In this document: positions 761 through 16,337 of the stretch, piece after piece
How positions within the stretch are numbered: the stretch's first letter is position 1
Layout of the letters: each line of letters starts with the position of its first letter
From: an uncultured Chitinophagaceae bacterium
GTDB taxonomy: Bacteria; Bacteroidota; Bacteroidia; Chitinophagales; Chitinophagaceae
DNA: 33,787 nt
Assembly: GCA_903895845.1 (NCBI GenBank)
Contig: CAITVK010000130.1
Coordinates: 1-33,787 of the forward strand
Direction of reading: 5' to 3'
Notes under the pieces: model-generated
Told to the model about the DNA's origin: nothing
Database searches by the model: none
What the model saw: only the letters and a program-made list of their open reading frames with translations
Translations under genes and position numbers: made by a program

Positions 761-949
761 AAACTAACCAGTTTTACGACAAAACTGATAGGTTTTGTGA
801 CGAAACTGACCAGTCTTGCGACAAGACTAATAGGTTTTGCGATAAAACTGACCAGTTTTGTGGCGAAAGTGATAAGTTTTACGACAAAACTGACCAGTCT
901 TGCGGCGAGACTAATAGGTTTTGCAACGAAACTGGTAGGTTTTGCGACC
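761..949. repeat. 21-bp-period tandem array, 9 units, between ilvE and ilvD
   Basis: Nine contiguous units of exactly 21 bp, with no insertion or deletion between them. Most odd units read like AAACTGACCAGTTTTGCGAC and most even units like AAACTAATAGGTTTTGCGA. The 3' part of one unit and the 5' part of the next form inverted repeats. CAGTTTT faces AAAACTG across units 1 and 2. AGTCTTG faces CAAGACT across units 3 and 4, so a T-to-C change on one arm is matched by A-to-G on the other. The array ends 69 nt before the ilvD ATG. Because 21 is a multiple of three, it leaves an open antisense frame of heptapeptide repeats, which I do not believe is a gene. Confidence 0.9.
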
Positions 950-1018
950 AAAGGGAACGTTTATAAATAGAATAAATCAAAGAATTAAATTAAAAAAAGA
1001 ATATTAAACGATAGAATC

Positions 1019-2701
1019 ATGGGTGAATTAAATAAGTACAGTAAGACGGTTACACAAGATGTTACGCAACCTGCGGCACAGGCAATGTTGTACGGAATTG
1101 GATTGACAGATGCCGATTTGGCTAAGCCGCAAGTGGGTATTGCGAGCATGGGTTGGGACGGGAATACGTGTAATATGCACCTGAACGATTTGGCTAAAAC
1201 CATTAAGAAAGGTGTTTGGGAAGAAGATTTGGTGGGATTGATTTTTAACACCATTGGCGTGAGCGATGGTATCAGCAATGGTACGGACGGGATGCGTTAT
1301 AGCTTGGTGAGCCGCGATATTATTGCGGATAGCATTGAGGCGGTTTGTGGTGCACAATATTATGATGCGGTGATTGCCGTGCCTGGTTGCGATAAAAATA
1401 TGCCCGGTTCTATCATGGCGATGGGTCGTTTGAACCGCCCTGCCATTATGGTTTATGGTGGAACGATTGCGCCAGGTCATTATAAAGGTCAGGATTTGAA
1501 CATCGTTTCTGCCTTTGAAGCCTTGGGACAAAAGATTGCTGGCAACTTGGATGAAGCAGATTTTAAGGGTATCGTGATGAATAGCTGTCCGGGTGCGGGT
1601 GCTTGTGGCGGTATGTACACGGCAAATACCATGTCTGCGGCTATCGAGGCGTTGGGTATGAGTTTGCCCTATTCTTCTTCAAATCCTGCTATCAGCGAAG
1701 AAAAGAATCAAGAGTGTTTGGCAGCAGGTAAGGCAATACGTTTATTACTAGAAAAAGATATTAAGCCACGTGATATCATGACGCGTGAAGCTTTTGAAAA
1801 CGCCATCGTAACCATCATGGTTTTGGGCGGAAGCACCAATGCTGTATTGCACTTGATAGCGATGGCAAAGAGTGTGGATGTTTCGCTTACGCAAGATGAT
1901 GTTCAGGCTATCAGTGATAGGATTCCTGTTTTGGCTGATTTTAAACCGAGCGGTAAATACCTGATGCAGGATTTGCACGAGCATGGTGGCGTTCCTTCTG
2001 TGATGAAATATTTATTGGAAAATGGATTGCTTCATGGCAATTGTTTGACCGTAACTGGTAAAACGCTTGCTGAGAATTTGGCTTCTGTTCCTACTATCAA
2101 CTTTGAAACACAAAAGATTATCTATCCTTTAGAAACACCGTTGAAAGCAACTGGTCACTTACAAATCCTTTATGGAAATTTGGCTACCAAAGGAAGTGTG
2201 GCTAAGATTAGTGGTAAGGAAGGTGAAAAATTTGTGGGTACGGCAAGGGTTTTTGATGGCGAACATGAGTTGATTGCAGGTATCCAAAGTGGTCGTGTTC
2301 ATTCTGGCGATGTGGTGGTTATCAGATATGTTGGTCCTAAAGGTGGACCAGGAATGCCTGAAATGCTGAAACCTACAAGTGCCATTATTGGTGCAGGTTT
2401 AGGTAAATCAGTTGCCTTGATTACTGATGGACGCTTTAGTGGTGGCACACACGGTTTTGTGGTTGGTCACATCACGCCAGAAGCTTTTGATGGCGGCACC
2501 ATTGCCTTGGTGAAGGATAATGACATTATAGAATTGGATGCGGTGAATAACACCATCAACCTAAAAGTTTCCGAAGAAGAAATTGCTGCAAGAAGAGCCG
2601 CTTGGAAACAACCTGCACTAAAAGCAACAAAGGGTGTTTTATTCAAATACGCACAATGCGTAAAAGATGCAAGTGAAGGTTGTGTAACGGATGAGGCGTA
2701 A
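1019..2701 (+). CDS. ilvD: Dihydroxy-acid dehydratase
   Basis: Dehydrates 2,3-dihydroxy-isovalerate or -methylvalerate to the 2-oxo acid, the third common step to Val and Ile, in the cytoplasm. The 560-residue length is typical of the IlvD/Edd family. Cys51 (GNTCNMH), Cys124 ([10 protein letters not shown]) and Cys196 ([15 protein letters not shown]) are the three cluster ligands expected of a [2Fe-2S]-type enzyme. The C-terminal domain carries the usual GGPGMPEM and [11 protein letters not shown] motifs. The start at 1019 begins a normal N-terminus; no Shine-Dalgarno is visible, as is usual in this phylum. It follows the 21-bp array. Its stop codon abuts a C/G-rich palindromic repeat element. 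Confidence 0.97.
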
Positions 2702-2720
2702 CCCCCATCCCCTAAAGGGT
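2700..2720 (-). repeat. REP-like C/G-rich palindromic element, copy A
   Basis: Read on the minus strand it gives ACCCTTTAGGGGATGGGGG, the same core as at 3659-3677 (plus strand) and, with one G missing, at 6193-6209. It overlaps the ilvD stop codon region. Short palindromic C/G-rich elements of this general type are common between genes in Bacteroidota. Confidence 0.7.
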
Positions 2721-2732
2721 TGAATGGAATTA

Positions 2733-2755
2733 TGAGGTCACAGCTTGTGACCTCA
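2733..2755. repeat. Perfect inverted repeat with 10-bp arms
   Basis: TGAGGTCACA and TGTGACCTCA are separated by GCT. As RNA this is a stable hairpin in the ilvD downstream leader, 15 nt before the next start codon at 2771. No T-tract follows, so it does not look like an intrinsic terminator. It could be a REP-like element, an mRNA-stabilising hairpin or an operator. Confidence 0.7.
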
Positions 2756-2770
2756 AACAAAATAAAAAGG

Positions 2771-3586
2771 ATGAAAGTATTATTTACATTTTTTCTGATA
2801 GTAATAGTATTCAGTGTTTCGGCACAGGATGCTGTTATTGTGAAATACTTTGATTCAACATTTTTTCCTTGTACAAAGGAGAACGCATTTTACAGCACGA
2901 AACTTATAAAGGAAGACTCTGCTTATAAGTGTACAATATTGTATGCGGATTCTAATAAATTGTACAGTATAACTTCTTATAAGGACACATTTCTAGTAAC
3001 AGGAGTCGGTACAATGGTTACTCATTATAAGAGTGGTAAAATTAAAGATTCGATTATTTTTAATGATGACGGAACTGAAAAACTTATTATTGACTATTAT
3101 GAAAGTGGAAAATTAAAAGATTCATCGTTTCGTGTAGCACTAACAATGGAATATGAATCGTATTATTATTATGAAAGTGGAAAATTGAAAGGACACTCTT
3201 ATTGGGATAATACACTAAAAAAGAATGTCGATGAAAGTTTTGATGAGAAAGGAGAATTGCTAAAAAATTACATTCATAGTAAAGAAGCTTCTTTTCCTGA
3301 CGGAAGGAATGGCTGGGTTGAATTTCTCACAAAAAACCTACGCACGAATGTACCAATTAAGCACAAAGCTCCATTAGGTAGATATACAGTTTATATCTCG
3401 TTGTCGATTAATAAAGATGGTAGGGTGAATGATGTTATTGCTGAAAATAATCCAGGATATGGGACAATGGAGGAAGCAATAAGAGCTATTAAGAAATCAC
3501 CGAAATGGGAAGCAGCTATAGAAGACAATAAGCCAATTGCGTATCATGCCAGGCAAAAAATTACGTTTGTAGTTCAAGAAGATTAA
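2771..3586 (+). CDS. Secreted protein with YwqK/MORN-like repeats and C-terminal TonB_C domain
   Basis: A 271-residue exported protein. The ATG at 2771 is chosen because it opens directly onto a signal peptide, MKVLFTFFLIVIVFSVSAQ. The in-frame ATG at 2720 would place 17 polar residues, encoded by a palindromic repeat, in front of it. The middle part has repeated Y(K/E)SGK(I/L)K units (THYKSGKIKDS, YYESGKLKDS, YYESGKLKGH) like YwqK/MORN-type repeats. The last roughly 90 residues look like a TonB C-terminal domain (YTVYISLSINKDGRVNDVI, AIKKSPKWEAA, ending KITFVVQ). Such orphan TonB_C proteins are common in Bacteroidota and their substrates are unknown. Its position between ilvD and ilvB is odd, and no link to amino acid synthesis is visible. 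Confidence 0.85.
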   Translation: MKVLFTFFLIVIVFSVSAQDAVIVKYFDSTFFPCTKENAFYSTKLIKEDSAYKCTILYADSNKLYSITSYKDTFLVTGVGTMVTHYKSGKIKDSIIFNDDGTEKLIIDYYESGKLKDSSFRVALTMEYESYYYYESGKLKGHSYWDNTLKKNVDESFDEKGELLKNYIHSKEASFPDGRNGWVEFLTKNLRTNVPIKHKAPLGRYTVYISLSINKDGRVNDVIAENNPGYGTMEEAIRAIKKSPKWEAAIEDNKPIAYHARQKITFVVQED

Positions 3587-3609
3587 TCTTTTAAAGAAAT
3601 TAATACATT

Positions 3610-5400
3610 ATGGAAGAAACATTAATAATAGAAGCCCCTCAAGCAGCAACTGCTAACGCCCCTTTAGGGGATGGGGGTGTTTGGGACAATAAAGTAGGAA
3701 CAAATATCACAGGCTCACAAGCAGTCTTGGAGGCTTTGATTGTTGAAGGCGTTGATACTGTTTTCGGTTATCCCGGCGGTGCTATCATGCCTATATATGA
3801 TGCGTTGTATGATTATCATGATAAATTAAAACATATCCTTGTCCGTCACGAACAAGGGGGCATTCATGCTGGTCAGGGTTATGCAAGAAGCTCTGGCAGG
3901 GTCGGTGTTGTGTTTGCTACTAGTGGTCCCGGTGCTACTAATCTGGTTACTGGTTTGGCTGATGCCATGATTGATAGTACGCCGTTGGTGTGCATCACAG
4001 GTCAGGTGTTTGCGCATTTGTTGGGAACAGATGCTTTTCAGGAAGTGGATGTAATCAATATTACAACACCTGTTACCAAATGGAATTGTCAGGTTACCGA
4101 TGCTTCTGAAATTCCTAATGCGTTGGCAAAAGCTTTCTTCATCGCAAGAACGGGAAGACCAGGACCTGTTTTGGTAGATATTACCAAGAATGCCCAATTG
4201 CAGAAGTTCGATTACGAAGGCTATAAACCGTGCAATCATATCCGTAGCTATCGTCCAAAGCCAATCGTAAGAAAGTCTTATGTAGAAGAGGCGGCTAAAT
4301 TGATTAATGAAGCAAAGAAACCTTTTGTAATCTTTGGTCAGGGCGTAATTCTTGGCGAAGCCGAACAAGAGTTTAAAGCCTTCATTGAGAAAGGTGGTTT
4401 GCCATCTGCTTGGACAATATTGGGTTTGAGTGCATTGCCTACCGATCATCCTTTGAATGTGGGTATGCTGGGTATGCACGGTAATTATGGCCCTAATGTT
4501 TTGACCAATGAATGTGATGTATTGATTGCTGTTGGGATGCGTTTTGATGATCGTGTTACTGGCCGTTTAGATAAATATGCCAAGCAAGCCAAGGTAATCC
4601 ATCTAGATATAGACCCTGCCGAAATAGATAAGAATGTGAAAACAACCGTTCCTGTTTGGGGCGATTGTAAGGAAACATTGCCAATGCTAACGGCATTGAT
4701 TGATAAGAAGGAACACACAGAATGGCATAACCAGTTCAAAGCGCTTTCTGCTAAAGAGAATGAAATAGTTATTCATAAAGAACTGAACCCTACTGAAGGT
4801 GAAATGACCATGGGTGAGGTTTTGAATGTATTAAATGAATTGACGAATGGTGATGCCATCATCGTAACAGATGTCGGTCAGCACCAGATGGTTGCTTGCA
4901 GATACGCCAAGTTCAATCAGTCAAAAAGTAACATTACTTCTGGTGGTGCGGGCACAATGGGCTTTGGACTGCCCGCAGCTATCGGGGCTAAGTTTGGTGC
5001 ACCAGAAAGAACTGTTGTTGCTATTATTGGCGATGGTGGTATCCAAATGACTATCCAAGAGTTGGGTACAATCATGCAGACGGGCGTTAATGTAAAAATT
5101 CTTATCCTCAACAACCGTTTCTTAGGGATGGTAAGGCAATGGCAGCAGTTATTCCACGATAAGCGTTACTCTTTTGTGGATATTCAAAGTCCTGATTATG
5201 TAGCGGTTGCTAAGGCATATAGGATAAAAGGATCTTCTGTCAATGATAGAAAAGACCTAAAGAGTGCTTTGGCAGAAATGCTTAACCACGATGGTTCTTA
5301 TCTATTAGAGGTGATGGTTGCGAAAGAAGACAATGTTTTCCCAATGGTGCCGCAAGGAAGAGGTGTTTCGGATATTGTTTTGACAAAAGATCAGGTGTAG
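3610..5400 (+). CDS. ilvB: Acetolactate synthase large (catalytic) subunit
   Basis: ThDP- and FAD-dependent enzyme that condenses two pyruvates, or pyruvate with 2-oxobutyrate, in the first step of Val and Ile synthesis. All three domains are present. The N-terminal Pyr domain has catalytic Glu81 (VRHEQGGIHAGQGYARSSG). The central domain has GMLGMHG and DDRVTGRLDKYA. The C-terminal PP domain has the ThDP/Mg motif from GDGGIQMTIQELG to ILILNN. At 596 residues it is slightly long because of about 20 extra N-terminal residues. Residues 17-24 (APLGDGGV) are the translation of a palindromic repeat element also found twice outside genes in this operon. The start follows the TonB_C gene by 23 nt, and ilvN begins 87 nt downstream. 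Confidence 0.97.
   Translation: MEETLIIEAPQAATANAPLGDGGVWDNKVGTNITGSQAVLEALIVEGVDTVFGYPGGAIMPIYDALYDYHDKLKHILVRHEQGGIHAGQGYARSSGRVGVVFATSGPGATNLVTGLADAMIDSTPLVCITGQVFAHLLGTDAFQEVDVINITTPVTKWNCQVTDASEIPNALAKAFFIARTGRPGPVLVDITKNAQLQKFDYEGYKPCNHIRSYRPKPIVRKSYVEEAAKLINEAKKPFVIFGQGVILGEAEQEFKAFIEKGGLPSAWTILGLSALPTDHPLNVGMLGMHGNYGPNVLTNECDVLIAVGMRFDDRVTGRLDKYAKQAKVIHLDIDPAEIDKNVKTTVPVWGDCKETLPMLTALIDKKEHTEWHNQFKALSAKENEIVIHKELNPTEGEMTMGEVLNVLNELTNGDAIIVTDVGQHQMVACRYAKFNQSKSNITSGGAGTMGFGLPAAIGAKFGAPERTVVAIIGDGGIQMTIQELGTIMQTGVNVKILILNNRFLGMVRQWQQLFHDKRYSFVDIQSPDYVAVAKAYRIKGSSVNDRKDLKSALAEMLNHDGSYLLEVMVAKEDNVFPMVPQGRGVSDIVLTKDQV
3659..3677 (+). repeat. REP-like C/G-rich palindromic element, copy B, inside ilvB
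   Basis: CCCCTTTAGGGGATGGGGG lies in frame in the 5' coding region of ilvB and encodes part of APLGDGGV (residues 17-24). It is the same element as at 2700-2720 (opposite strand) and 6193-6209. It sits in the non-catalytic N-terminal extension, so the enzyme probably tolerates it. Confidence 0.8.
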
Positions 5401-5406
5401 GTGACG

Positions 5407-5439
5407 AACCTTTATAGGGTTTTGAACCCTATAAAGGTT
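5407..5439. repeat. Perfect inverted repeat, 15-bp arms, ilvB-ilvN junction
   Basis: AACCTTTATAGGGTT is followed by TTG and then its exact reverse complement AACCCTATAAAGGTT. It starts six bases after the ilvB stop codon and ends 48 nt before the ilvN ATG. The transcript would form a long uninterrupted hairpin with a three-base loop. Only a short T-run follows, so full termination is unlikely. A processing site, partial attenuator or REP-like element are alternatives. Confidence 0.85.
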
Positions 5440-5487
5440 TTAATGTAAGTCTAGAATAATATTTACAACGATTAGAAATATATAGTA

Positions 5488-6132
5488 ATGATACAATCAC
5501 AGAATAATACACAATATGCTCCCACTGATACCCAAGCTGATCCAGTAAAACAAGAGTTTACTATCACCGTTTATACCGAGAATCAGGTGGGCTTATTGAA
5601 TCGTATTGCGATTATCTTCTCAAGAAGAAAAATCAATATCGAAAGCCTGAACACCTCTCCTTCTGAGGCGGAAGGGATACACCGTTTTACTATTGTCATC
5701 AATGAGTATGAAGATGTGGTTAGAAAGCTTTGCCGTCAGATAGAGAAGCAAGTGGAAGTATTGAAAACCTACTTCAATACCAATGATGAAATTGTTTGGC
5801 AAGAGTTGGCTTTATACAAAGTGCCTACAGATATTATTGCCGAAAAGGTGATGGTAGAACGCTTGTTGCATAAACATGGTGCAAGGGCGGTAGTGATTCG
5901 TAAGGACTATACCATCTTCGAAACAACTGGTCATCGAGAGGAAACCGAAGGTCTCATTGATGCCTTGGCACCGTATGGATTGATTGAGTTCGTGCGTAGT
6001 GCACGTGTGGCAATCATCAAAGCTAGTAGTGGGTTTCACGATAAATTAAAAGAGTTCGAAGCGTTTCAACCCGCAGAAGAGTTGGCAGAAAATGAATACT
6101 TAGGTAAACGCGAAGGTGTATTTTCAATGTAA
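5488..6132 (+). CDS. ilvN: Acetolactate synthase small (regulatory) subunit
   Basis: Regulatory partner of IlvB that confers feedback inhibition, usually by valine. An ACT domain spans about residues 23-100 (FTITVYTENQVGLLNRIAIIFSRR is its start, then KINIESLNTSPSEAEGIHRF), followed by the small-subunit C-terminal domain (MVERLLHKHGARAVVIRKDY, then ETEGLIDALAPYGLIEFVRS). At 214 residues it is longer than the E. coli small subunits of about 160, with a polar N-terminal extension of about 20 residues and an acidic C-terminal tail, as in many Bacteroidota homologues. It lies between ilvB and ilvC in the operon. Confidence 0.95.
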   Translation: MIQSQNNTQYAPTDTQADPVKQEFTITVYTENQVGLLNRIAIIFSRRKINIESLNTSPSEAEGIHRFTIVINEYEDVVRKLCRQIEKQVEVLKTYFNTNDEIVWQELALYKVPTDIIAEKVMVERLLHKHGARAVVIRKDYTIFETTGHREETEGLIDALAPYGLIEFVRSARVAIIKASSGFHDKLKEFEAFQPAEELAENEYLGKREGVFSM

Positions 6133-6192
6133 ACCCCTTTACTTTGCAGCCCGTTAAAATTGTTCAATAATAATTAATAATTAGCCCCTTAC

Positions 6193-6209
6193 CCCCTTTA
6201 GGGATGGGG
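6193..6209 (+). repeat. REP-like C/G-rich palindromic element, copy C
   Basis: CCCCTTTAGGGATGGGG in the ilvN-ilvC gap matches the cores at 2700-2720 and 3659-3677 but has lost one G in the middle run. It ends 19 nt before the ilvC start codon, so its hairpin could affect ilvC translation. Confidence 0.7.
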
Positions 6210-6228
6210 TGGCGACAAACAAAAAAAG

Positions 6229-7713
6229 ATGGCAAATTATTTCAACACGCTTTCATTGAGAGAAAAATTAAGTCAGTTAGGCGTATGTGAGTTTATGGAT
6301 GGCAGTCAGTTCGCTGATGGCGTTACCGCTTTAAAAGGTAAAAAAATAGTAATAGTAGGTGCTGGTGCACAAGGGTTGAACCAAGGGTTGAACTTGCGTG
6401 ATTCTGGCTTGGATGTTTCTTATGCTTTGCGTAAAGAAGCTATCGAAGCTAAGCGTGCTAGCTGGAAAGGAGCTACCGAGAATGGTTTTACCGTTGGTAC
6501 TTATGAAGAATTAATCCCTTCTGCCGACCTTGTTATCAACCTTACTCCTGATAAACAACACACTGCTGTGGTGAGTGCGGTGATGCCTTTGATGAAACAA
6601 GGTGCTACCCTTTCTTACTCACACGGTTTCAATATTGTGGAAGAAGGTATGCAAATCCGTAAGGACTTAACCGTTATCATGGTCGCTCCAAAGTGTCCTG
6701 GTTCTGAAGTACGTGCAGAGTATGTGCGTGGTTTTGGCGTACCTACTTTGATTGCGGTTCACCCAGAAAACGATCCTCAAGGAAAAGGTTGGGAACAAGC
6801 AAAAGCTTATGCTGCTGGTACTGGTGGACATAGAGCGGGTGTGTTAAAATCTTCTTTTGTTGCAGAAGTTAAGTCCGATTTGATGGGCGAACAAACCATC
6901 CTTTGCGGTTTGTTGCAAACTGGTTCTATCTTAAGTTTTGATAAGATGGTAGAAAAAGGAATAGATGGCGCTTATGCTGCTAAGTTAATTCAATATGGTT
7001 GGGAAGTAATTACAGAAGCGTTAAAACAAGGTGGTATTACTGCCATGATGGATCGTTTGAGTAACCCTGCCAAGATTAAAGCTTTCGAATTGGCTGAAGA
7101 ATTAAAGGGCATTATGCGTCCTTTGTTCCGCAAGCACCAAGATGATATTATGAGTGGTGAGTTCTCTAAAACAATGATGGAAGACTGGGCTAATGATGAT
7201 AAGAATTTGTTGACATGGCGCGCTGCTACTGGCGAAACTGCTTTCGAAAAGACTGCTGTTACCAGTGCTAAGATTGCTGAACAAGAATTCTTTGATAATG
7301 GCTTGTTGTTGGTTGCTTTCGTTAAGTCTGGCGTTGAGTTGGCTTTCGAAACAATGGTAGAATCTGGCATCAAGGCTGAATCTGCTTACTACGAGTCATT
7401 GCACGAAACACCATTAATTGCGAACACCATTGCTCGTAAGAAATTGTTTGAGATGAACCGTGTAATCTCTGATACTGCCGAGTATGGTTGTTATTTGTTC
7501 GATCACGCTTGTAAACCATTATTGGCCGATTTCATGAAGAAGATTGATACTGATGTTATCGGTACAAACTTCAATGCTGGTAAGGACAATGGTGTTGACA
7601 ACAAAGAAATCATCGCTGTAAACAAATCAATCCGTGCGCATCAGATTGAAGAAGTTGGTGCTACATTGAGAGCAGCTATGACAGCCATGAAATCTATCGC
7701 AACGGTAGCGTAG
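6229..7713 (+). CDS. ilvC: Ketol-acid reductoisomerase, class II (long form)
   Basis: NADPH-dependent isomerisation and reduction of acetolactate or acetohydroxybutyrate, the second step of Val and Ile synthesis. The 494-residue length is that of the long class II enzyme with a duplicated C-terminal knotted domain, not the class I form of about 330-350 residues. The sequence is strikingly close to the enterobacterial enzyme from [18 protein letters not shown] onward. It has the Rossmann motif [19 protein letters not shown], the NADPH-selecting segment [15 protein letters not shown], and metal-site segments [12 protein letters not shown] and [16 protein letters not shown]. Last gene of the operon; an intrinsic terminator follows 49 nt after the stop. 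Confidence 0.97.
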
Positions 7714-7715
7714 CA

Positions 7716-7746
7716 GTTATGAGTGATGAATTATGAGTGATGAGTG
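7716..7746. repeat. Degenerate ATGAGTGATGAATT direct repeats after ilvC
   Basis: TTATGAGTGATGA occurs twice in succession just after the ilvC stop codon. Related ATGAGTTATGA-type runs occur after the gene ending at 9751 and at 27421-27442. It looks like low-complexity intergenic repeat DNA. Confidence 0.5.
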
Positions 7747-7762
7747 AAAGGACATAAATTAA

Positions 7763-7806
7763 AAAAGCCCTTGAAAGTAAAATCTTCAAGGGCTTTTCTT
7801 TTTGAA
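7763..7806 (+). terminator. Intrinsic terminator of the ilv operon
   Basis: AAAAGCCCTTGAA (7763-7775) pairs perfectly with TTCAAGGGCTTTT (7785-7797) across a nine-base loop, and a T-rich tract follows. It lies 49 nt after the ilvC stop. Confidence 0.9.
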
Positions 7807-7856
7807 TATTCTTTTTAAAAAAAGACACACGCGAAACGCGTGCGGTAGCGGGGGAA

Positions 7857-8033
7857 CTAACGAATTGTCAATTGAATGTCGCTAAGTCCTCTAGTACAAA
7901 AATTGGGAAGGGAGCTATACTTAACTTCATCAATTAAAATTTTATCTCCTGACTTTAATGTCTTTATTATTGAAATCATTTCTTCAGTTAAATTTTGGAA
8001 ATGGTTGAAACAGGCGGAATATCTTCCCCATTC
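7857..8033 (-). other. -1 frame continuation of the GldM-C-like protein
   Basis: Reading on in the -1 frame after the A AAA AAG heptamer gives 58 more residues ending with TAG at 7857. They include NLTEEMISIIKTLKSGDKIL and DIQLTIR, the typical end of GldM-C-like domains (lt-emk..Ik.lk.GdkI). A shifted product would be 214 residues. The zero-frame alternative is short and family-unlike. Confidence 0.65.
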
Positions 8034-8500
8034 TTTTTTATGATATTTAATCTAAAATTAGTAACAACAAACCTAAACTTATAAGAACATTTGGGATTAG
8101 AAATTACTAAAAAGGGATTTGATAGTATTTGATTTACTGTGATTAATGAATCGGAAACAAATGATAAATACCCCATAGGATGAAAATCACATTCCCTAAC
8201 AGTAAATATATTCGTTGATATTAGTTTTTTATTTTTAAATACACTAATAGAATCCAAACCAACTTTATCTGGGATTACGGTAATGATTGAGTCAAAAATA
8301 TCAATATGAGAGTGAGCCGATGATTTTATTGTATAGCCGCTTAGGTTTCCTATACCAACTATTTTCAAGTCATTATCCAAATATAAGTAAAGCTGATTTG
8401 ATTCAAAACTCTGATCACTAGTATTTATAATCTTAACCTTTTCATTTAACGTCATTGAAAGAAAAGAAAAAAGTGAAACTATAAATAATTTTATTGCCAT
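7988..8500 (-). CDS. GldM C-terminal-domain-like secreted protein, zero-frame part (frameshifted)
   Basis: 170 residues in the zero frame, beginning with a signal peptide (MAIKLFIVSLFSFLSM, cleavage uncertain). The pattern VKIINTSDQSFESNQLYLYLDNDLK, then a Vx(P)DKxGLDSISVFKNKK segment, then FTVRECDFHPMGYLSF, resembles the C-terminal domains of the gliding/type IX secretion protein GldM. It lacks the GldM N-terminal membrane segment and periplasmic stalk, so it is an orphan domain protein rather than GldM itself. The zero frame ends soon after K156 with residues unlike the family. The expected last segment is intact in the -1 frame (7857-8033). The junction is the heptamer A AAA AAG at 8039-8033, in register with the zero frame. 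Either an indel pseudogene, a sequencing error, or slippage. Confidence 0.65.
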   Translation of the reverse strand: MAIKLFIVSLFSFLSMTLNEKVKIINTSDQSFESNQLYLYLDNDLKIVGIGNLSGYTIKSSAHSHIDIFDSIITVIPDKVGLDSISVFKNKKLISTNIFTVRECDFHPMGYLSFVSDSLITVNQILSNPFLVISNPKCSYKFRFVVTNFRLNIIKKNGEDIPPVSTISKI

Positions 8501-8551
8501 AATTTTCGTCGCTGTTTTATTCTAGTTTTGACAACATTCATTTTCTAAAAC

Positions 8552-8559: not shown

Positions 8560-8612
8560 CCCCCTTCACTTCAATCTTCACTTCTTTGATAGACATGATT
8601 CCGCATGATTTG

Positions 8613-8825
8613 TCAACTTTTGAAAAATTCCCAAATCTTATTTCCCCCCAATCCCAAAACAATACCTACATTGCAGCCAAGCGAGGAAAAGGGGTTTAGG
8701 TTTTGGTAATGCGCTATTGCCACAAAACATTTTTTACCAACAAAAATTTTGCTCGTGCCGTTACAAATCAATTTTTCCCCTTTCATTTCTGGTCTCACAG
8801 GTGTAAACGCCTCGTCTCTTATCAT
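8613..8825 (-). CDS. Doubtful small hypothetical protein
   Basis: A 70-residue open frame starting MIRDEAFTPVRPEMKGEKL, with several Gly- and Cys-containing segments, no signal peptide and no family I recognise. It stands alone between the GldM-C-like gene and the 21-bp array with no clear promoter. It could be chance; it is listed because nothing overlaps it on the other strand. Confidence 0.2.
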   Translation of the reverse strand: MIRDEAFTPVRPEMKGEKLICNGTSKIFVGKKCFVAIAHYQNLNPFSSLGCNVGIVLGLGGNKIWEFFKS

Positions 8826-8880
8826 TCACAACTTCTTTTTTAATCTCTTTTTGCTGGTTTATCATCGAAATTGACTCTGT

Positions 8881-9048
8881 AAAAGACATCTTTTCTTCAA
8901 AAAAAGAGGTCTTTTAGAGGAAAAAAGAGGTCTTTTAAAAGAGAAAAGAGGTCTTTTAGCCAAAAAAAGAGGTCTTTTCTCGCAATAAAGATGTCTTTTA
9001 CAAATAAAAAGAGGTCTTTTTTCTTCTAAAAGATATCTTTTTTTGAGC
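8881..9048. repeat. 21-bp-period tandem array, 8 units, upstream of the Fn3-like gene
   Basis: Eight units of exactly 21 bp. Each is a near-palindrome AAAAGANNTCTTTT followed by seven variable bases. The central pair is CA, GG, GG, GG, GG, TG, GG, TA in order, so the last unit is a perfect palindrome. The arms are unchanged apart from the first base of unit six. The seven-base spacers differ in every unit, which is not expected if simple recent duplication made the array. A-runs and T-runs recur every 10-11 bp, which predicts intrinsically curved DNA. The array ends 67 nt before the ATG at 9116. Confidence 0.92.
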
Positions 9049-9115
9049 AAAGAATCAGGAATTGGCATTAGACAAAACAGGTTTTAAATAAATTAATCAG
9101 TAAAAAATAAATATT

Positions 9116-9751
9116 ATGAGTGCAAATAGAGCAATCACAAACTTTGAAAATGAAAATGACGATGAAATAGTTACCACCTCAAACTCTGCCATAGCGGGGC
9201 TTACGGGCAATGCAAATTTTACTTTTACCACACAATTGTCCGATGTGGTTTCGGCAGAGGCAACTTATGTTACCAAGCTTGGGCTGGTGGCAACGGGCGG
9301 AAGTACGGCGGTTACGGCAAAGGATATTGCCAAAGGGGTGTTGGAAACGAAGCTTGCAGTGTTGGCAAAGGCCGTGAACTTGCAGGCAAATGGGGATTTG
9401 GGCAAGCTGCAATCGAGCGGATTGCCTTTGGTAAAATTGCCTGTTCACAACAATATGGGCGTGCCTGCAAACTTTAGGGTTGCTCGCACAAACATTGCTG
9501 GCAATATGGAAGTGAGTGTTGATAAACCTATTTATGGCACACACGGAACCATTTTTGCTTTTTGGAAACCCTCTTTGGGGCCTACGCCTGCCAACATTAA
9601 TGATTGGTTTTTCCGTCATAGCAATGGGCTAAGTTTTACCATTACGGGGCTTACGCCCAATACGTCCTATCCTTTTGCAGCCGCCTACAAAGGCAATGAC
9701 AACGAACCGTTGGTGTGGACGGCAATCACTACAAAATCGGCGGGCGACTAG
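9116..9751 (+). CDS. Fibronectin type III-like domain protein
   Basis: A 211-residue protein without a signal peptide or membrane segment. The N-terminal part (ANSxIAxLTGNANF-like: SAIAGLTGNANFTFTTQLSD) and the Ala-rich helical region after it recall a widespread Bacteroidota family of short proteins with a C-terminal Fn3-like domain. The Fn3 signal is the end, SFTITGLTPNTSYPFAAAY followed by a short strand and TAITTKS. The function of the family is not known to me. It is a single-gene unit with a 21-bp array upstream and a strong terminator downstream. Confidence 0.75.
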   Translation: MSANRAITNFENENDDEIVTTSNSAIAGLTGNANFTFTTQLSDVVSAEATYVTKLGLVATGGSTAVTAKDIAKGVLETKLAVLAKAVNLQANGDLGKLQSSGLPLVKLPVHNNMGVPANFRVARTNIAGNMEVSVDKPIYGTHGTIFAFWKPSLGPTPANINDWFFRHSNGLSFTITGLTPNTSYPFAAAYKGNDNEPLVWTAITTKSAGD

Positions 9752-9755
9752 AGCT

Positions 9756-9790
9756 GAGATATGAGTTATGAGATATTAGTTATGAGTTGA
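9756..9790. repeat. ATGAGTTATGAGATAT-type direct repeats
   Basis: Short direct repeats of ATATGAGTTATGAG and TTAGTTATGAGTTG right after the stop codon at 9751. They resemble the runs at 7716-7746 and 27421-27442. Confidence 0.5.
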
Positions 9791-9834
9791 AGAGGAAATA
9801 AAGTGCAAAAACTTTATTTCCTCTTTTCTTTTTT
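9791..9834 (+). terminator. Intrinsic terminator after the Fn3-like gene
   Basis: AGAGGAAATAAAGT (9791-9804) pairs perfectly with ACTTTATTTCCTCT (9811-9824) across a six-base loop, followed by TTTCTTTTTT. It would end the transcript 40 nt after the stop at 9751. Confidence 0.88.
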
Positions 9835-9968
9835 GTGCTGCTTTGAGCCTTAGTGCGTTTGTGGCGAAAGAAGAATGGACTAAAAGAATGCTGTGAAGGC
9901 GTGTTTTACAAATGGTTACTCTTTGGGCTTGTGCTACAACTATTGCTTTCAGTACAATTACTCTTTTT

Positions 9969-11039
9969 TTAGATGCGTTTGGCTCTTTCGTATTGCACAG
10001 GCCATTCCATTTCATGATAGCCAAGGTCATTGGCTGCGTGTAATGCAAAATATGGGTTGCGTAATGTTTCCCTAGCCATCAAAATCAAATCTGCCTGCCC
10101 CGTTGCAATGATTGTTTCGGCTTGGGCTGCTTGCGTAATAATGCCAACTGCACCAGTAAGTATTCCTACTTCTTGTCTTATCCGTTGCGAAAACTTCACT
10201 TGATAGGATGGTCCGGTAGGTATTTTGGCGTTGGATACATTACCGCCTGTTGAGCAGTCTATCAAATCTACACCTCTTACTTTTAATAGTGCAGATAGTG
10301 CAACAGATTCATCTTCTGTCCAACCGCCCTCAGTCCAGTCAGTTGCAGAAATCCTGACAAACAAAGGCAACTGCTCGGGCCATACACTCTTGATGGCATC
10401 TGTCACCTGAAGTAGCAAACGAACTCTGTTTTCAAAGCTACCTCCGTATTCGTCTGTACGCTGATTACTTAGTGGAGAAAGAAATTCGTGTATCAGATAG
10501 CCATGTGCGGCATGAATCTCAATAATGCTGAATCCCGCAGTATAAGCGCGGACAGCAGCTGCTTTGAAATCGGTTATTATCTCGGTTATCTGTTGTTTGG
10601 TGAGTTCTTTTGGCATCCCATATTTATCATTGAAAGGAATTGCACTTGGTGCTACAGGTTGCCAACCACCTTCGCTTTCGGGCACTAGTACATTGCCATT
10701 CCAAGGACTACTCACACTTGCTTTTCGCCCGGCATGTGCTAGTTGAATGGCAAGTTTAGAACCTTGTGCCTTCACAAATTTGGCAATGCGATGCAGTTCA
10801 TCCACGTGTTCATCTTTCCAGATACCAAGGTCGCTCGGAGTAATCCTTCCTTCTGCTACTACCGCTGCTGCCTCCATAATAATAAGCCCTGCACCACCAA
10901 TTGCACGACTTCCAATATGCACAAAATGCCAATCATTGGCAAAACCATCTACCGATGAATATTGACACATAGGCGATACCGCCAATCTGTTTTTTATTGT
11001 AATACCTTTTATAACGAGGGGACTGAATAACTGTGGCAT
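9969..11039 (-). CDS. namA: NADH:flavin oxidoreductase, Old Yellow Enzyme family (YqjM/NamA class)
   Basis: FMN-dependent ene-reductase, cytoplasmic, that reduces activated C=C bonds with NAD(P)H. The start is placed at the ATG at 11039 (MPQLFSPLVIKGITIKNR), which aligns with the normal family N-terminus. The longer frame opens with TTG at 11066 and adds nine unconserved residues. Length 356 fits. Thermophilic-like/YqjM hallmarks are visible: Cys25 and Tyr27 in SPMCQYSS, and His176, His179 and Tyr181 in IEIHAAHGYLIHEF. Next come SNQRTDEYGGSFENR and the FMN phosphate segment DLILMARETLRNPYFALHAA. It lies alone, 294 bp downstream of the TPR kinase gene on the same strand. The physiological substrate cannot be told. 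Confidence 0.93.
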   Translation of the reverse strand: MPQLFSPLVIKGITIKNRLAVSPMCQYSSVDGFANDWHFVHIGSRAIGGAGLIIMEAAAVVAEGRITPSDLGIWKDEHVDELHRIAKFVKAQGSKLAIQLAHAGRKASVSSPWNGNVLVPESEGGWQPVAPSAIPFNDKYGMPKELTKQQITEIITDFKAAAVRAYTAGFSIIEIHAAHGYLIHEFLSPLSNQRTDEYGGSFENRVRLLLQVTDAIKSVWPEQLPLFVRISATDWTEGGWTEDESVALSALLKVRGVDLIDCSTGGNVSNAKIPTGPSYQVKFSQRIRQEVGILTGAVGIITQAAQAETIIATGQADLILMARETLRNPYFALHAANDLGYHEMEWPVQYERAKRI

Positions 11040-11333
11040 TGTAAATAGATTTAATAATTGCTGCAAGGTATTGTAAACCTTTACACAAAAACTGATAAAC
11101 CCCTAAATGATTTATTTAGTTTACTATAAAACCATTAGATAGTAGGTTCTATGAATTATTTTCTTTCTGCGAAATTGCAGCTAACTGGTTCTTGACAGAT
11201 TAATAAGCTCCCGCTGTTGGTGTTACAGACTCCGCGAAAAGCCCTTTTTAACTTCATTTATTACCTTACAGCTTATCCGCAGCCTGTTATTGCTGGCTTT
11301 GATATGATTGATTATTTTGTGCTGTCTGATAAT

Positions 11334-13289
11334 TTATGAAATCTTGGCAGGTAATGTAAACCAAAATCTAGCTCCCTCACCTTCCTTGCTTTCCACGCCA
11401 ATAGTACCGTTGTTCTTCTCCACAAAATCTTTACACAATATCAATCCAAGCCCAGTGCCACTCTCTCTGTTGGTGCCTAACGTAGTAAAACGTTCCTTCT
11501 TTTTAAACACTTTTTGAATATTCTCTTCAGAAATTCCCATGCCATTGTCGGTTACATTTATCTCAATCTTATTGTCTAGTTGCTTTGCCGATAGAATTAC
11601 CTTCTTGTTTTGATCGCAGTACTTAATTGCATTGGCAACAAGATTCCTTAGTACAAGATCTATCATGTTTTTGTCGGCATGAACCACCATATCAGGCGAA
11701 ATCTCGTTCAATAGTTCAATTTGTTTGTCGCTCGCCTGTTTTTCAAATAGTTGCAACTGTGTTTGAACAAGAGGATATAATTCAAAATTCTTACGTACAA
11801 TATGTGTCCCTTTTAATTGTGCATTCGACCAGAACAATAAGTTTTCCACCAGCTCCAATGTAGTTGTTACACCCTTAACCAACGCCGGAATAATTGTCTG
11901 GAACTTTTCCTGCGACAGATTTCCGGCGGCCAATAGTCCAAGAATTGCTTTTAAATTCTTTAGCGGACTGCGTAAGTCATGCGAGATAATGGCGAGCAAC
12001 CTGTCTTTCAAGTTATTCAGTTCCTCAATATCTTCTGATTGTTTTTTTATCTGCAGATTATTGGCAACTAATGCTTCATTTTGGCATAAAATCTCTTGTT
12101 GCTTTTTATTTATTTCCTCATTAGCTAATTGCAACTTGGCATTTGTTTGTTTTAATTTGTTTCTGGAATAAAACACAAACCCTGCAAAGGCAGAAACAAG
12201 TAAGAGTGTTCCAAATATGATGTCTGACACTAACTCTTGCCGCTTTAGCTCAGACTCTTTTCGTCTTTTTTCTGCTTTCAAAACAGCCAAATCTTGTTTG
12301 CTTCTATTATTTTCGAAAGTCTGTACAATGTCGTTATTGGTTGCAGACTGAATACTATCGTTCGTTACAATAAAGAGGTTCTTGAACTTCAATGCCTCAG
12401 CATAATTGCCTTTCTTTTCTAATATCTTGCTCAGAATGTTATAGGCATCGATTAGATTCTCCCTAATTTTAGTTTCTTCTGCCACTGCTAGTCCCTTTTT
12501 TACATAAAGTTCTGCATTGGATAAATCATTCAGTGATAGATAAATTTTTGCGAGTACCAGATATTCCGCTGCAATAGCATACTGGTCATTAATTTGTATT
12601 GAAAGGGTCATCGCCTTGCCAATATATTCCTTAGAAAGGGAAAATTGTTTCTTGAGATAATAGGACTCCGCATAATTTGTTAGAATATAGTCTAAGAGAT
12701 AATTGTTATTGCTTTTACTCAGCACAATTGCTTTGTCTAGATAGAAGATAGCGCTGTCAGGATTACCGGATTTAAATAAGGCATCGGATAAAAAGACCTC
12801 TGCCCTGCATAAGTTGACGGATTGGTTCAGCATCGAAAAATACTTAACTGCCTCCTTGTTATAATCAACTGCCAATGGAAAATTTCCAACATCCGTATAG
12901 CATCCACCCAAGTTCAGCTTAATGCGCGCCAACGCCTCAATATCATGTATGTTGCTTGCAATCCTGAAACTTTCGTTGAAGTTGGAAATGGCTTTTGCTA
13001 TGTCACCAATCTGTTCATACCCCTGACCAATCAGGTCTAGTACTTCTGCTTCCCGTTTGTCATCATCTATTTTTTGCGCTAGCTTGAGGGCAATCATGCC
13101 ATAGCTGATTGTCTTTTCGGGTTCTGCATCTCGGTAAAAAGCAGAGACTGCCAAAAGGATATCTATCTTGCAAGTATCGATTTTACATTTGGAATAAACG
13201 GCAAGAAGACTGTCAATTTTTTTCGTTTGAGAAAAACATAGACTTATATGAAGTGCTGCCAATAATGTAATAATAATAAGTCTCTTCAT
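11334..13289 (-). CDS. TPR-containing membrane histidine kinase
   Basis: Sensor kinase of 651 residues from the ATG at 13289, chosen because it begins a signal peptide (MKRLIIITLLAALHISLCFS); an in-frame ATG at 13322 would add 11 charged residues. The periplasmic part (about 40-310) is made of TPR repeats such as EAEVLDLIGQGYEQIGDIAK. One membrane helix follows (about 356-375, DIIFGTLLLVSAFAGFVFYS), then a coiled coil. The HisKA H-box is AIISHDLRSPLKNL with phospho-acceptor His437. The HATPase domain has N-box NLVANAIKYCDQ, G1 DNGMGISEENI and G2 GTGLGLILC. There is no receiver domain and no response regulator next to it, so its partner is elsewhere. This periplasmic-TPR architecture is common in Bacteroidota. 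It is divergent from the barrel receptor gene at 13705. Confidence 0.92.
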   Translation of the reverse strand: MKRLIIITLLAALHISLCFSQTKKIDSLLAVYSKCKIDTCKIDILLAVSAFYRDAEPEKTISYGMIALKLAQKIDDDKREAEVLDLIGQGYEQIGDIAKAISNFNESFRIASNIHDIEALARIKLNLGGCYTDVGNFPLAVDYNKEAVKYFSMLNQSVNLCRAEVFLSDALFKSGNPDSAIFYLDKAIVLSKSNNNYLLDYILTNYAESYYLKKQFSLSKEYIGKAMTLSIQINDQYAIAAEYLVLAKIYLSLNDLSNAELYVKKGLAVAEETKIRENLIDAYNILSKILEKKGNYAEALKFKNLFIVTNDSIQSATNNDIVQTFENNRSKQDLAVLKAEKRRKESELKRQELVSDIIFGTLLLVSAFAGFVFYSRNKLKQTNAKLQLANEEINKKQQEILCQNEALVANNLQIKKQSEDIEELNNLKDRLLAIISHDLRSPLKNLKAILGLLAAGNLSQEKFQTIIPALVKGVTTTLELVENLLFWSNAQLKGTHIVRKNFELYPLVQTQLQLFEKQASDKQIELLNEISPDMVVHADKNMIDLVLRNLVANAIKYCDQNKKVILSAKQLDNKIEINVTDNGMGISEENIQKVFKKKERFTTLGTNRESGTGLGLILCKDFVEKNNGTIGVESKEGEGARFWFTLPAKIS

Positions 13290-13322
13290 TAACCCCTTTT
13301 CAATACGTTTAAGTGCATTCAT

Positions 13323-13704
13323 TTCTTAAATGAATGGCGGTAATTTTCCATGTTCTTGAAAACCGGAATGTTTAAAACAAACCAATCATGCTTTTGTAGT
13401 GGGGGAGTAGGGGTGTTGTGTAAAGCAAATAATCGTCCATTAAACTCGTTATTCTGATAGGCTAAATGGGCCACTCAGTATTTAATATGTGTTTCAAAAG
13501 TGGGCAAAGATAAGTGACAGTACTAATTTAAGCAACCCTTATTTGGGGGTACAGATTGTTCTGAAATTCTGTCTTTTGTGATAGGGGGGATATTCGGAAT
13601 ACTGGAGTTCTTTATTGATTAAGGAACAACAGGTATTGATTAACCTAAAATTATTCTATGTACATCAACTAGGCTAATATATTTGCCGCCTAATTATTAT
13701 ATAC
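13323..13704. other. Divergent intergenic region, 382 bp
   Basis: Separates the TPR kinase (minus) from the outer-membrane receptor (plus). Apart from the promoter candidate at 13678-13685 I see G-runs and A/T-rich DNA but no gene, repeat array or clear hairpin. A promoter for the kinase should lie here but is not obvious. Confidence 0.5.
13678..13685 (+). promoter_or_regulatory. Candidate -7 promoter element for the barrel receptor gene
   Basis: TATATTTG matches TAnnTTTG and lies 19 nt before the ATG at 13705, giving a short leader of about 13 nt. The -33 region is not convincing. Confidence 0.5.
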
Positions 13705-16179
13705 ATGCTTTCGTCAAGCAAACAATTCTTATTGTTTTCTATTTTATCAATCTTGATTCCGTTTATTTCATTAGCTCAATCGGCAACTGTTTCTGGCGAG
13801 GTGAGGGATAGCGCATTGAAGCAGGGTATTGAATTAGCAACTATTTCACTGATTAATCAGAGTGGAAAAGTGGCTGCAATAACCACTTCCGATAAAACTG
13901 GCAAGTTCTCACTTGCTATTAATAGTGAGGGGGTTTATACAGTAGCAGTAGAATTTTTGGGATATAAAAAGAAGGTGTTTGCAAATGTGTTGATTCAGAA
14001 AAAGGCTGCTTTGGGAGTGATTGTGCTACAACCATTTGGAAATAACCTGCAAGAAGTAACCGTTACAGGACAAAGTAATGGCTTGAAGATAAAGAATGAC
14101 AGGCAAGTATTTAAAGCCAGTCAGTTTGACAACGCAAAGGGAGGTACAGCAATAGACCTGATTAAAAACTTGCCTTCGGTAGCTGTAAATGCCCAAGGGG
14201 GTGTTACGCTTCGTGGTTCGGATAATTTTTTGGTACTGATAAATGGTAAACCAACGTTAGTGGATGGCAACACAATTTTATCTCAAATGCCGGCAGGTAG
14301 TGTAGAAAACATTGAGGTAATAACAACGCCTTCTGCCCGCTTCGATCCTGATGGAAAAGCAGGTATCATCAACATCATCACCAAAAAAGGTACAGACGAT
14401 GGTTGGTTGTTCATTGCCAATGTTACAGATGGGTTACCTAGTTTGCATACCTATGATAATGGTCGTACCCCAAGTAGATATAGTGCGGATGTTACGGTTG
14501 GGTATAAGAAAAACAAGTGGGATTTAAGTGCCAATGCCAATTACTTACGCAATGATGTGGCAGGTTATCGCGAAGGGAATGCATATACCGTTGCCCCCGG
14601 TGATTTCACTATCCCTACACAAACGAATTTCCCTTCTACAGGTGAACGTAGTTTCAAACGGTACAACTATGGGATAAGATTGGCAGTTACCTATAGTGCC
14701 AGCAAAAACGATACTTGGTCGGCAGGTTTCTATGAAGGTTTCAAACATCAGGATAGAGAAGCGGATTTAAATTACAATGTTTTCAGAACCTTAGCAGGTT
14801 CATCTGCCATCATCAGTCAGAACAATTATTACAATGCCAACAACCAAAAAAGGGAAGGAACTTTTACTTTAGGAAACCTAGATTATACACACACTTTTAA
14901 AGATAAAAGTAGCATCACCGCTTCTTTTCTTTATGAAGGGGCCGACTTGCATGGTGGGACAACCAATAATAATTTAGTGTCAAAAGCATCAAATGATACA
15001 ATTCAAATTACAAGAACCATCTATAAAAATCCATTGAGTGGCTACAGGGCTAAACTAGATTATGCCCGCAAATGGGGTATTGGTACGTTGGAAGCAGGTT
15101 ATCAGTATCGGTTTGATGGGCAAAATGGAAACTTTGATTATGATACATTGAATTTAATTACGAAGAAGCTATTACCCGATGCTGACTTTACAAGTGCTGT
15201 AAAAGTCAATAATATTATTCATTCTATCTATACCCAATATAGTGTGCAGCAATCGAAATGGTACTACAGTGGGGGACTCCGGTATGAATATTCTGACAGG
15301 AAACTATGGTTTGGCGATTCAATACAACCTGAATTGACGCTGAATGATTTATTTCCTTCGTTGCAAGTACGCTATACAGCCCCTAATATGTGGAAGTGGA
15401 AAGCGGGTATCAGCAGGAGGGTAAAGCGTACGACCAATACTGAATTGAACCCATTTCCTGAGCGCGAACACTCTGAGACATTGGAAAAAGGAGATCCAAA
15501 ATTGTTGCCAGAATATGTCACCCTTGCAGAGTTGGGAACCGAAAAGACATTTAGAACAGGAACCTGGTATGCAACAGCATATTATCAGCATACGGCAAAC
15601 ATTATTCAACGGTTGAATAGTGTGTATGCAGACACAATCCTAAACAGAATTTATACCAATGCAACGGAAGCTGTGCAATATGGTGTGGAAACAGGACTAA
15701 CACTGAACCCAACCAAGTGGTGGCAGTTTCTGGCAGGGATAAATGTATTTGAATCACATTTAAGCGGTACCATCTTTAATGGGGAGGTAGCAGTTGATAA
15801 GAGTAAGGTTGCCTACACCTGGAATACAACCCAAACTTTTAAACTGCCCGCAAAGTGGACGGTGCAATTGAGTGTTTCTTATTTGTCGTTACGTCCTACT
15901 GCGCAAGGTGAAGATGGTGCGTTTCTTTCACCCAATCTATCTATCAAGAAAACAACAACTAATAATGCTTGGACCTTCCAAGCGCAATGGTTGAATATGG
16001 ATGCAGGTTTAGGCATTTCAAATATTCAACGCATTACTACTTCTGGCAGGTATTTTTATACAACCACCAACTACATAGTTGAACCGGATGTACTTCAATT
16101 AGGTATCAGCTACAACTTCAATAAGAAAAACAAAAAAGTAAAATTACCTACAAGCGAAATAGGGGAGAGGGAGTTTTAA
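13705..16179 (+). CDS. Outer-membrane beta-barrel receptor (TonB-receptor-like)
   Basis: An 824-residue outer-membrane protein. A signal peptide comes first (residues 1-24, ending SLAQ). A CarboxypepD_reg-like beta-sandwich follows at about 27-115 (SGEVRDSALKQGIELATISL). Then a plug-like region at about 120-230 (LQEVTVTGQS, then AIDLIKNLPSVAVNAQGGVTLRG, VLINGKPT, SARFDPDGKAGIINIITKKG). The rest is a long barrel rich in alternating aromatic strands (the OMP_b-brl_3 type). It resembles TonB-dependent transporters but has no SusD partner and no recognisable TonB box, so whether it imports anything is open. It may be controlled by the divergent kinase, but only position suggests that. Confidence 0.88.
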   Translation: MLSSSKQFLLFSILSILIPFISLAQSATVSGEVRDSALKQGIELATISLINQSGKVAAITTSDKTGKFSLAINSEGVYTVAVEFLGYKKKVFANVLIQKKAALGVIVLQPFGNNLQEVTVTGQSNGLKIKNDRQVFKASQFDNAKGGTAIDLIKNLPSVAVNAQGGVTLRGSDNFLVLINGKPTLVDGNTILSQMPAGSVENIEVITTPSARFDPDGKAGIINIITKKGTDDGWLFIANVTDGLPSLHTYDNGRTPSRYSADVTVGYKKNKWDLSANANYLRNDVAGYREGNAYTVAPGDFTIPTQTNFPSTGERSFKRYNYGIRLAVTYSASKNDTWSAGFYEGFKHQDREADLNYNVFRTLAGSSAIISQNNYYNANNQKREGTFTLGNLDYTHTFKDKSSITASFLYEGADLHGGTTNNNLVSKASNDTIQITRTIYKNPLSGYRAKLDYARKWGIGTLEAGYQYRFDGQNGNFDYDTLNLITKKLLPDADFTSAVKVNNIIHSIYTQYSVQQSKWYYSGGLRYEYSDRKLWFGDSIQPELTLNDLFPSLQVRYTAPNMWKWKAGISRRVKRTTNTELNPFPEREHSETLEKGDPKLLPEYVTLAELGTEKTFRTGTWYATAYYQHTANIIQRLNSVYADTILNRIYTNATEAVQYGVETGLTLNPTKWWQFLAGINVFESHLSGTIFNGEVAVDKSKVAYTWNTTQTFKLPAKWTVQLSVSYLSLRPTAQGEDGAFLSPNLSIKKTTTNNAWTFQAQWLNMDAGLGISNIQRITTSGRYFYTTTNYIVEPDVLQLGISYNFNKKNKKVKLPTSEIGEREF

Positions 16180-16264
16180 AGAAATTGAAGCCAAGGTTTA
16201 TGAGTTTAAAAATTAGCGAAAAACCAATTCGTCTCGCTTGCCAAGTAAATGGTTTCAGCAGTAA

Positions 16265-16337
16265 AAGGATACTTCTTTTTGAGATAAGTATCCTTACCTG
16301 AGCAAAAAGGTTACTTATCCTTGAAGAAAGTATCCTG
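16265..16337. repeat. 21-bp-period array of alternating inverted 10-mers, 4 units
   Basis: AAGGATACTT (16265), AAGTATCCTT (16286), AAGGTTACTT (16307) and AAGTATCCTG (16328) begin exactly 21 bp apart. The second is the exact reverse complement of the first, and the fourth matches the inverse of the third with few mismatches, so orientation alternates. The 11-bp spacers are unrelated in sequence. A weaker fifth unit near 16347 is out of phase by two bases. The same period and A-rich/T-rich arm layout are seen at 761-949 and 8881-9048 with different sequences. Confidence 0.75.

Follow-up and report, generated by a model that had tools for sequence, protein, structure and literature searches.

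In a review of E. coli supercoil domains (PMC6907758), domain sizes are given as 10–400 kb, the barriers between them as apparently random and the nature of the barriers as unknown; about 600 BIMEs figure there as candidate domain barriers, and one of them was shown to impede supercoil diffusion. REPs, according to another report (PMC3733652), mostly belong to families carrying a GTAG or CGTC tag and are found chiefly where the neighbouring genes are tandem or convergent. Direct heptamer repeats of the TAACTGA type are abundant and intergenic, in some Bacteroidetes too; in the published account (PMC4679880) they have a 7-bp period and one motif, and in the main genome studied they mostly lie just before start codons. 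Tandem rows of lac operators, bound by multimeric repressor, block supercoil diffusion and form stable topological barriers (PMC4725879). In freshwater Planctomycetota, intergenic tandem repeats have been linked to structural variants in lake genomes; the accessible text (PMC9426551) does not describe a fixed period, a dyad or regular spacing.

Here we describe intergenic arrays with a step of two helical turns that share features with each of these systems. They resemble REPs and BIMEs in being intergenic, palindromic and present in hundreds per genome, but differ in their free motif, fixed period and equal use of divergent gaps. Like the lac arrays they are rows of sites, commonly dyad symmetric, whereas the lac arrays are engineered, with one motif and one known protein; the Planctomycetota repeats belong to another phylum. 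In eukaryotic satellite DNA, monomer length and place are conserved while sequence turns over fast and a library of families is shared; the arrays here differ in being short (∼200 bp), in occupying perhaps 300 dispersed sites on a bacterial chromosome, and in having a two-turn monomer. Such arrays were undescribed among the literature matches listed, a search that left subscription papers mostly outside, so that absence from print is unproven.

The stretch of DNA analysed, 33,787 nucleotides in length and referred to below as the window, corresponds to contig C130 in a draft Chitinophagaceae genome of 4.01 Mb (G000). It holds three arrays, none assigned a strand. Array 1 (744–952, as trimmed) has 9–10 units of 21 bp with the dyad core AAACTGACCAGTTT (dyad P = 0.02); TRF reports its 21-bp repeat from position 760, and its best lag is 42 (z = 11.4). 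It is flanked by genes at 20–754 and 1019–2701, which, as with the other genes named in the window, we take from their translations to be ilvE-like and ilvD-like, respectively. Array 2 (8881–9043) consists of eight units in which the 14-bp core AAAAGAGGTCTTTT (dyad P = 0.007) alternates with variable 7-bp spacers (lag 21, z = 9.6); arrays of the same family occur on contigs C114, C74 and C53 of G000 and in genome G012. Array 3 (16263–16348) is weaker, with four weak units whose cores (GGATACTT and AAGTATCC) alternate in orientation, 54% identity at lag 42 and z = 5.5, and its consensus gave no significant dyad in a 21-column test (P = 0.75). The trimmed arrays end 66, 72 and 151 nt before the next ATG; the 69 and 67 nt given for the first two in the initial annotation are correct for the boundaries used there. 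Placement upstream of a plus-strand gene, also proposed there, does not generalize, as array 2, which ends 72 nt before the ATG at 9116, sits between divergent genes. Identity at lag 7 is 0.18–0.25 in the three arrays, and they therefore lack the 7-bp period of heptamer repeats; in the arrays counted outside the window, lag-7 identity is below 0.5 by the filter itself. The window also contains a TPP riboswitch (27282–27397, minus strand; Rfam RF00059, 64.4 bits), which precedes a gene at 24819–27212 that is presumably TonB-receptor-like.

Arrays were sought elsewhere with a scanner that compares, for each lag from 10 to 60, the self-match of an 84-bp window with its expectation from composition, keeping z > 5. 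Thirteen genomes of the genus to which G000 belongs were searched, and 12 of these were scanned (2.03 Mb, including 0.97 Mb of G000; G003 was unscanned). Dropped before counting were heptads, defined by a lag-7 identity of at least 0.5, and arrays filling less than half of an enclosing ORF of at least 300 bp. When non-array intergenic DNA of the genus was simulated with an order-2 Markov model (2 Mb), two hits exceeded z = 5, the higher being 5.3; against this maximum the three window arrays (z = 11.4, 9.6 and 5.5) are real where the initial annotation had placed them. Because arrays without stop codons were initially classed as coding, early counts (motif families, the clustering of 62 arrays and a dyad test on 66 arrays) are low.

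The automatic scan returned 148 intergenic non-heptad arrays, of which 133 had a lag of 21 (46 arrays), 42 (66), 41 (14), 43 (5) or 20 (2); the other 15 were spread over nine other lags, including 22 (5) and 44 (3). Twelve further arrays (13 rows, two of them merged) were added by eye from 49 additional candidates, the rest being heptads, runs of N or parts of longer ORFs. The total is thus 145 arrays in 2.03 Mb from 12 genomes, with 72 in G000, which suggests about 300 per genome. In a comparison set of 79 other loci (L018–L096; 1.32 Mb; titles mostly Chitinophagaceae and Sphingobacteriaceae), none of the six arrays kept had a lag of 20, 21, 41, 42 or 43. These loci are provisionally taken to come from other genera, although their IlvD identity (77–86%) spans the 79–80% of the same-genus genomes G004 and G006. 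Four intergenic lag-21 hits in this set (L045, L056, L070 and L077) were of heptad type and were removed after trimming, and further hits fell in ORFs or N runs. Intergenic repeats of 7 or 14 bp form a separate class, found in this genus and in other loci (G008 C1, L056, L070).

Density within the genus varies. There is one array per 12–15 kb in G000, G005, G010 and G011 and one per 20 kb in G007, G008 and G009, while G006 has one in 85 kb and the small samples of G001 (25 kb) and G004 (33 kb) have none; the samples of G002 (two arrays in 20 kb) and G012 (one in 4 kb) are too small for a density. The scarcity of arrays in some same-genus genomes indicates that the wider genus can do without the element.

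The arrays have a median length of 201 bp (quartiles 159 and 225 bp, mode 180–220 bp), corresponding to nine to ten units, and their period is strict. Among 804 core-to-core distances in arrays of period 20, 21 and 42, 710 were exactly 21 bp and 729 a multiple of 21; 26 were off by one (20 of them being the step of a single 20-bp array) and 49 departed otherwise, while in the same arrays 24% of positions (4515/18 598) were substituted relative to consensus. This count omits the period-41 and -43 arrays, which would alternate steps of 20/21 or 21/22, and the core models, derived from ungapped arrays, carry some bias toward 21, though matches were sought 150 bp past each end. Dyad symmetry was significant (P < 0.05) in 65 of 120 arrays, where six are expected (Fisher 9e-50), and not significant in the other 55; this test used 42 columns for period-42 arrays, and a weaker version based on a 21-column consensus gave 12/66. 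In 21 arrays selected for their strong dyads, conservation is highest 3–6 bp from the dyad axis in both directions, and lower at the centre and in the spacer. The choice of dyad axis favours conserved columns, so that this profile is informative in shape only; as read from sequence, it has the form predicted for the operator of a dimer, its half-sites separated by about one turn. The fixed 21-bp step with dyad cores on one face of the DNA, first noticed in the window, thus recurs over the 145 sampled arrays. The A-rich left and T-rich right arms noticed with it do not: of the 65 dyad arrays, 28 are A-left, 18 T-left and 19 neutral.

The arrays do not share a sequence. No 5- or 6-mer recurs in most of 120 arrays (AAAAG does so in 30 and AGACCT in 14), and the only common k-mer is AAAA, found in 73/120 arrays as compared with 48 expected. 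In G000, 62 arrays found in a sampled 24% of the genome, an undercounted set, fell into 35 clusters, 26 of them singletons. By these two measures, 5-/6-mer recurrence and clustering rather than GTAG or CGTC tags, there is no shared family sequence of the kind that characterizes REPs and BIMEs. A single operator common to all arrays was considered and is unsupported, motifs being private or in small families. The family CCAAGGTCTTGG occurs at many loci in six of 13 genomes, AAAGAGGTCTTT in two of 13 (G000 and G012), and a TGACTCA type forms a further family. For 54 of 101 arrays the nearest motif lay in the same genome, as compared with 35.6 ± 5.0 when genome labels were shuffled; lag-21 and lag-42 arrays only were used, and seven known orthologous pairs were left out.

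Gene direction is immaterial to where arrays occur. With long ORFs serving as gene calls, arrays were present in similar proportions of tandem (75/308, 24%), convergent (14/65, 22%) and divergent (34/127, 27%) intergenic gaps of at least 200 bp, a distribution that departs from the tandem and convergent location of REPs and BIMEs. There is accordingly no special place upstream of genes, contrary to the initial annotation. A promoter element was considered as a candidate and rejected, since there is no enrichment upstream of start codons and convergent gaps are used about as often. The annotation had named random periods, a lack of conserved core geometry and random position relative to genes as findings that would weigh against it; the scan found neither of the first two, while position relative to genes is indeed not special.

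Arrays are nevertheless spaced more evenly than random choice among gaps would give. The 95 intervals between neighbouring arrays, from 18 stretches longer than 30 kb (1.47 Mb), have a mean of 11.5 kb and a median of 10.4 kb; their coefficient of variation (CV), 0.56, compares with 0.85–0.88 for random-gap placement and lies below all of 4000 placements. Intervals shorter than 4 kb numbered three, as compared with 23–26 expected (0/48 versus 11–13 in G000 alone, 3/47 versus 12–13 in the other genomes). Without the hand-added arrays, 2/83 intervals were below 4 kb (19–21 expected) and the CV was 0.66 versus 0.88–0.89; in the automatic set of G000 alone the effect on CV was modest (0.68 versus 0.87–0.90, P = 0.01–0.03), with 0/43 short intervals as compared with 10–11 expected.

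Places are conserved among close relatives (G003, G007, G010, G011 and G012) while motifs change. Where both neighbouring genes could be matched, 14 of 15 gaps held an array, often with another motif (ilvD site 3/3; A 1/2; C 3/3; D 5/5, including one remnant; array 2 1/1; C28 1/1). With one neighbour matched, eight of 19 gaps held a clear array (C in G012, F in three genomes, G in G012, and the right side of B, C114:79168, in G010, G011 and G012) and one a weak array (right of B in G007). Ten did not: F in G012, G in G007, E in G007, the left side of B in five genomes and the left side of A in G010 and G011; gene order differs in most of these misses, which are therefore not the same gap. The tally is not a random sample, as a G000 array was the starting point for every site, and searches with arrays or flanks brought up C, array 2 and C28. 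In three more distant comparisons (G004 at ilvD, G000 opposite a G009 array, and G009 opposite a G010 array), all three gaps were without an array.

The ilvE–ilvD gap holds arrays in G000, G007, G010 and G012, with the motifs AAACTGACCAGTTT, GGGACATACCG type, AAACTAATTAGTTT and GTACATATATGTAC, respectively, between flanks of 90–93% identity; between G000 and G010 the changes are matched in both arms. Site C (G000 C53:126400) carries AAAGAGGTCTTT in G000 and G012 and CCAAGG types in G007, G003 and G010, that of G003 being intermediate. At site D (C114:22657) all five other genomes have an array, of four motif types, reduced to a remnant in G012 only; the G003 motif, TTCAAGTGAA, is unrelated to the others there. 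Site F (C53:104113) has arrays in G010, G011 and G003 (2–3 units), with three motif types when G000 is counted, and none in G012. At site A (C114:74841) the arrays of G000 and G012 are 98% identical over 180 bp, G012 having one unit fewer, as compared with 88% for the whole alignment including genes, while the G007 gap is only 70 bp and lacks the array. Array 2 has a counterpart in G012, and C28:25408 has one of the same motif family in G011. Spacing is thus retained while sequence changes, as the initial annotation had proposed from the window, both over the 145 sampled arrays and at orthologous sites.

The two-turn step, the dyads, the ∼ten units, the conserved place, the regular spacing and the changeable sequence together favour a nucleoprotein platform under selection over a regulatory site or a chance repeat. 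We tentatively read the arrays as phased dyads that would be bound by a dimeric protein and would mark chromosome domains, with geometry selected and sequence drifting. Each array would be a row of ∼ten sites, commonly dyad symmetric; as the sites are two helical turns apart, dimers of a DNA-binding protein could occupy adjacent sites on the same face of the helix over ∼200 bp and assemble into a single large nucleoprotein complex. A complex of this kind would recur ∼every 11 kb in intergenic DNA, whatever the gene direction, and would most likely organize the chromosome as a barrier to supercoil diffusion or as a loop anchor; the closest published function, by analogy, would be the supercoil barrier, and of such a role the sequence shows just the even 11.5-kb spacing. 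Selection would keep period, dyad, length and place, while the bases would drift by unit turnover and settle, satellite-like, into motif families across the loci of one genome. From the arrangement of the arrays we infer protein binding, filament formation, selection on geometry and a domain-organizing role, all four. The idea of a protein-bound structural element, as put forward in the initial annotation, gains from the dyads, from the conservation of half-sites and from the lack of an RNA strand bias (see below), and loses from the 55/120 arrays without a significant dyad and from the absence of a binder among the G000 proteins compared. HU (two matches), HTH_3 (nine) and TetR (three) are not expanded in G000, and blastp among 735 proteins of the G000 sample gave no large paralogous DNA-binding family recognizable by eye, a comparison that could miss divergent HTH families; its largest cluster, of 12 members, looks like response regulators and kinases, and the others have at most nine. 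With so many unrelated motifs a single sequence-specific protein is improbable; a reader of the arrays would have to be tolerant of sequence or multiple. Further points against this reading are the ten one-neighbour gaps without an array, the modest evenness of spacing in the automatic G000 set and the same-genus genomes with few arrays.

Two other structural readings can be set against these data. One is that phased A tracts make the arrays intrinsically curved, as the initial annotation had also suggested. Arrays 1 and 2 do carry A/T runs at 21 bp, and the excess of AAAA noted above is in keeping with curvature, but A4 or T4 is present in at least 60% of units in only 37/133 arrays and in less than 20% of units in 57/133, and array G+C ranges from 17 to 64%, which makes curvature very improbable as a general account. 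A transcribed ladder of small hairpins is the least probable reading of all. Dyad units could fold, and at the ilvD site both arms have changed in a compensatory way between G000 and G010, as paired RNA would; mismatched pairs on the sense strand, however, were nearly equally GT (102) and AC (91) in 38 arrays between co-directional genes, and this lack of strand preference argues against selection on a transcript. Moreover, arrays occur in divergent gaps, hairpins would not be expected to hold a fixed 21-nt step, and neither the window arrays nor those in five other sampled loci matched Rfam at the gathering threshold. A more serious competitor, though an unlikely one, is that the arrays are operators stacked at 21 bp and read by a large number of ordinary transcription factors, with one regulon per motif family. 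What sustains this reading is the sharing of motif families within genomes: nearest motifs lie in the same genome more often than expected, as if a trans-acting factor kept them alike, and the site A array is better conserved between G000 and G012 than the alignment with its flanking genes. Against it, arrays do not prefer gene starts, convergent gaps are used about as often, spacing is over-regular, motifs switch at sites between close species, and the 35 clusters with 26 singletons would call for many regulators, yet HTH_3 and TetR, the two regulator families tested, are small.

Somewhat less unlikely, but still doubtful, is a neutral or selfish bacterial satellite, in which copying or slippage with a built-in 21-nt step multiplies intergenic units and target immunity keeps copies apart. 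That arrays are gained, lost and turned over gives this explanation its force: unit number has changed by exactly one unit at site A, the array is missing there in G007 and is a remnant at site D in G012, motifs turn over fast, and ten of 19 one-neighbour gaps are without an array. Long inverted repeats inside some arrays also fit; near-perfect ones, found by eye in arrays or at their ends (L105 14200–14262, L104 1–282 and L017 9775–9950), look as if shaped by hairpin or template-switch copying. On the other hand, off-register distances are few despite 24% substitution, place is kept in 14/15 both-neighbour gaps though the sequence has often been replaced, and the regular spacing and dyads require extra assumptions. 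Nor was a copying enzyme identified in G000, which has a single Y1_Tnp match. As regards the tyrosine transposase associated with REPs (RAYT), Y1_Tnp matches number one in G000, one in G007, seven in G010, four in G011, three in G006 and one in G013, from another genus; these numbers do not track array density.

Returning to phased dyad arrays as chromosome-organizing sites, a stronger version, which we regard as possible and hold with less assurance, is a lattice of ∼300 geometry-coded sites, one per ∼11–14 kb, which a protein would recognize by their two-turn phasing and dyads instead of by any fixed sequence; place, length and phase would be kept as sequence is replaced, as a bacterial counterpart of satellite-based organization. 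At ∼one per 11,000 bases sampled, the arrays look like an undescribed kind of chromosome-organizing DNA. If this is true, a lineage that marks ∼11-kb intervals with recognizable, regular DNA sites makes the separation of supercoil domains testable, and selection can act on DNA geometry with near-free sequence, a satellite-like evolution in bacteria.

Some minor observations concern individual arrays and their neighbours. Near-identical (94–100%) arrays of 41 or 42 bp at G000 C53:139245, C80:15386, L170:1–220 and L274:1–264, two of them at contig ends, are possibly young or partly coding repeats. A locus of similar style with another step (L100 7474–7820, G000 C114:67476) has a 20-bp period, ∼17 near-identical units and the odd-centred palindrome GTGAGCCTCAC. 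A fluoride riboswitch (RF01734) lies at L098 8948–9013 (G000 C114:28948–29013). A family of ∼210-aa proteins, which by eye we take to be fibronectin-III-like, is encoded at 9116–9751 of the window and at G000 C114:10443, C119:25282, C60:19476 and C60:9092. In four of these five sampled members a 21-bp array lies directly upstream (42–155 bp), as compared with 21% of sampled proteins within 700 bp of an array, and in a 310-aa family two of three members have an array upstream.
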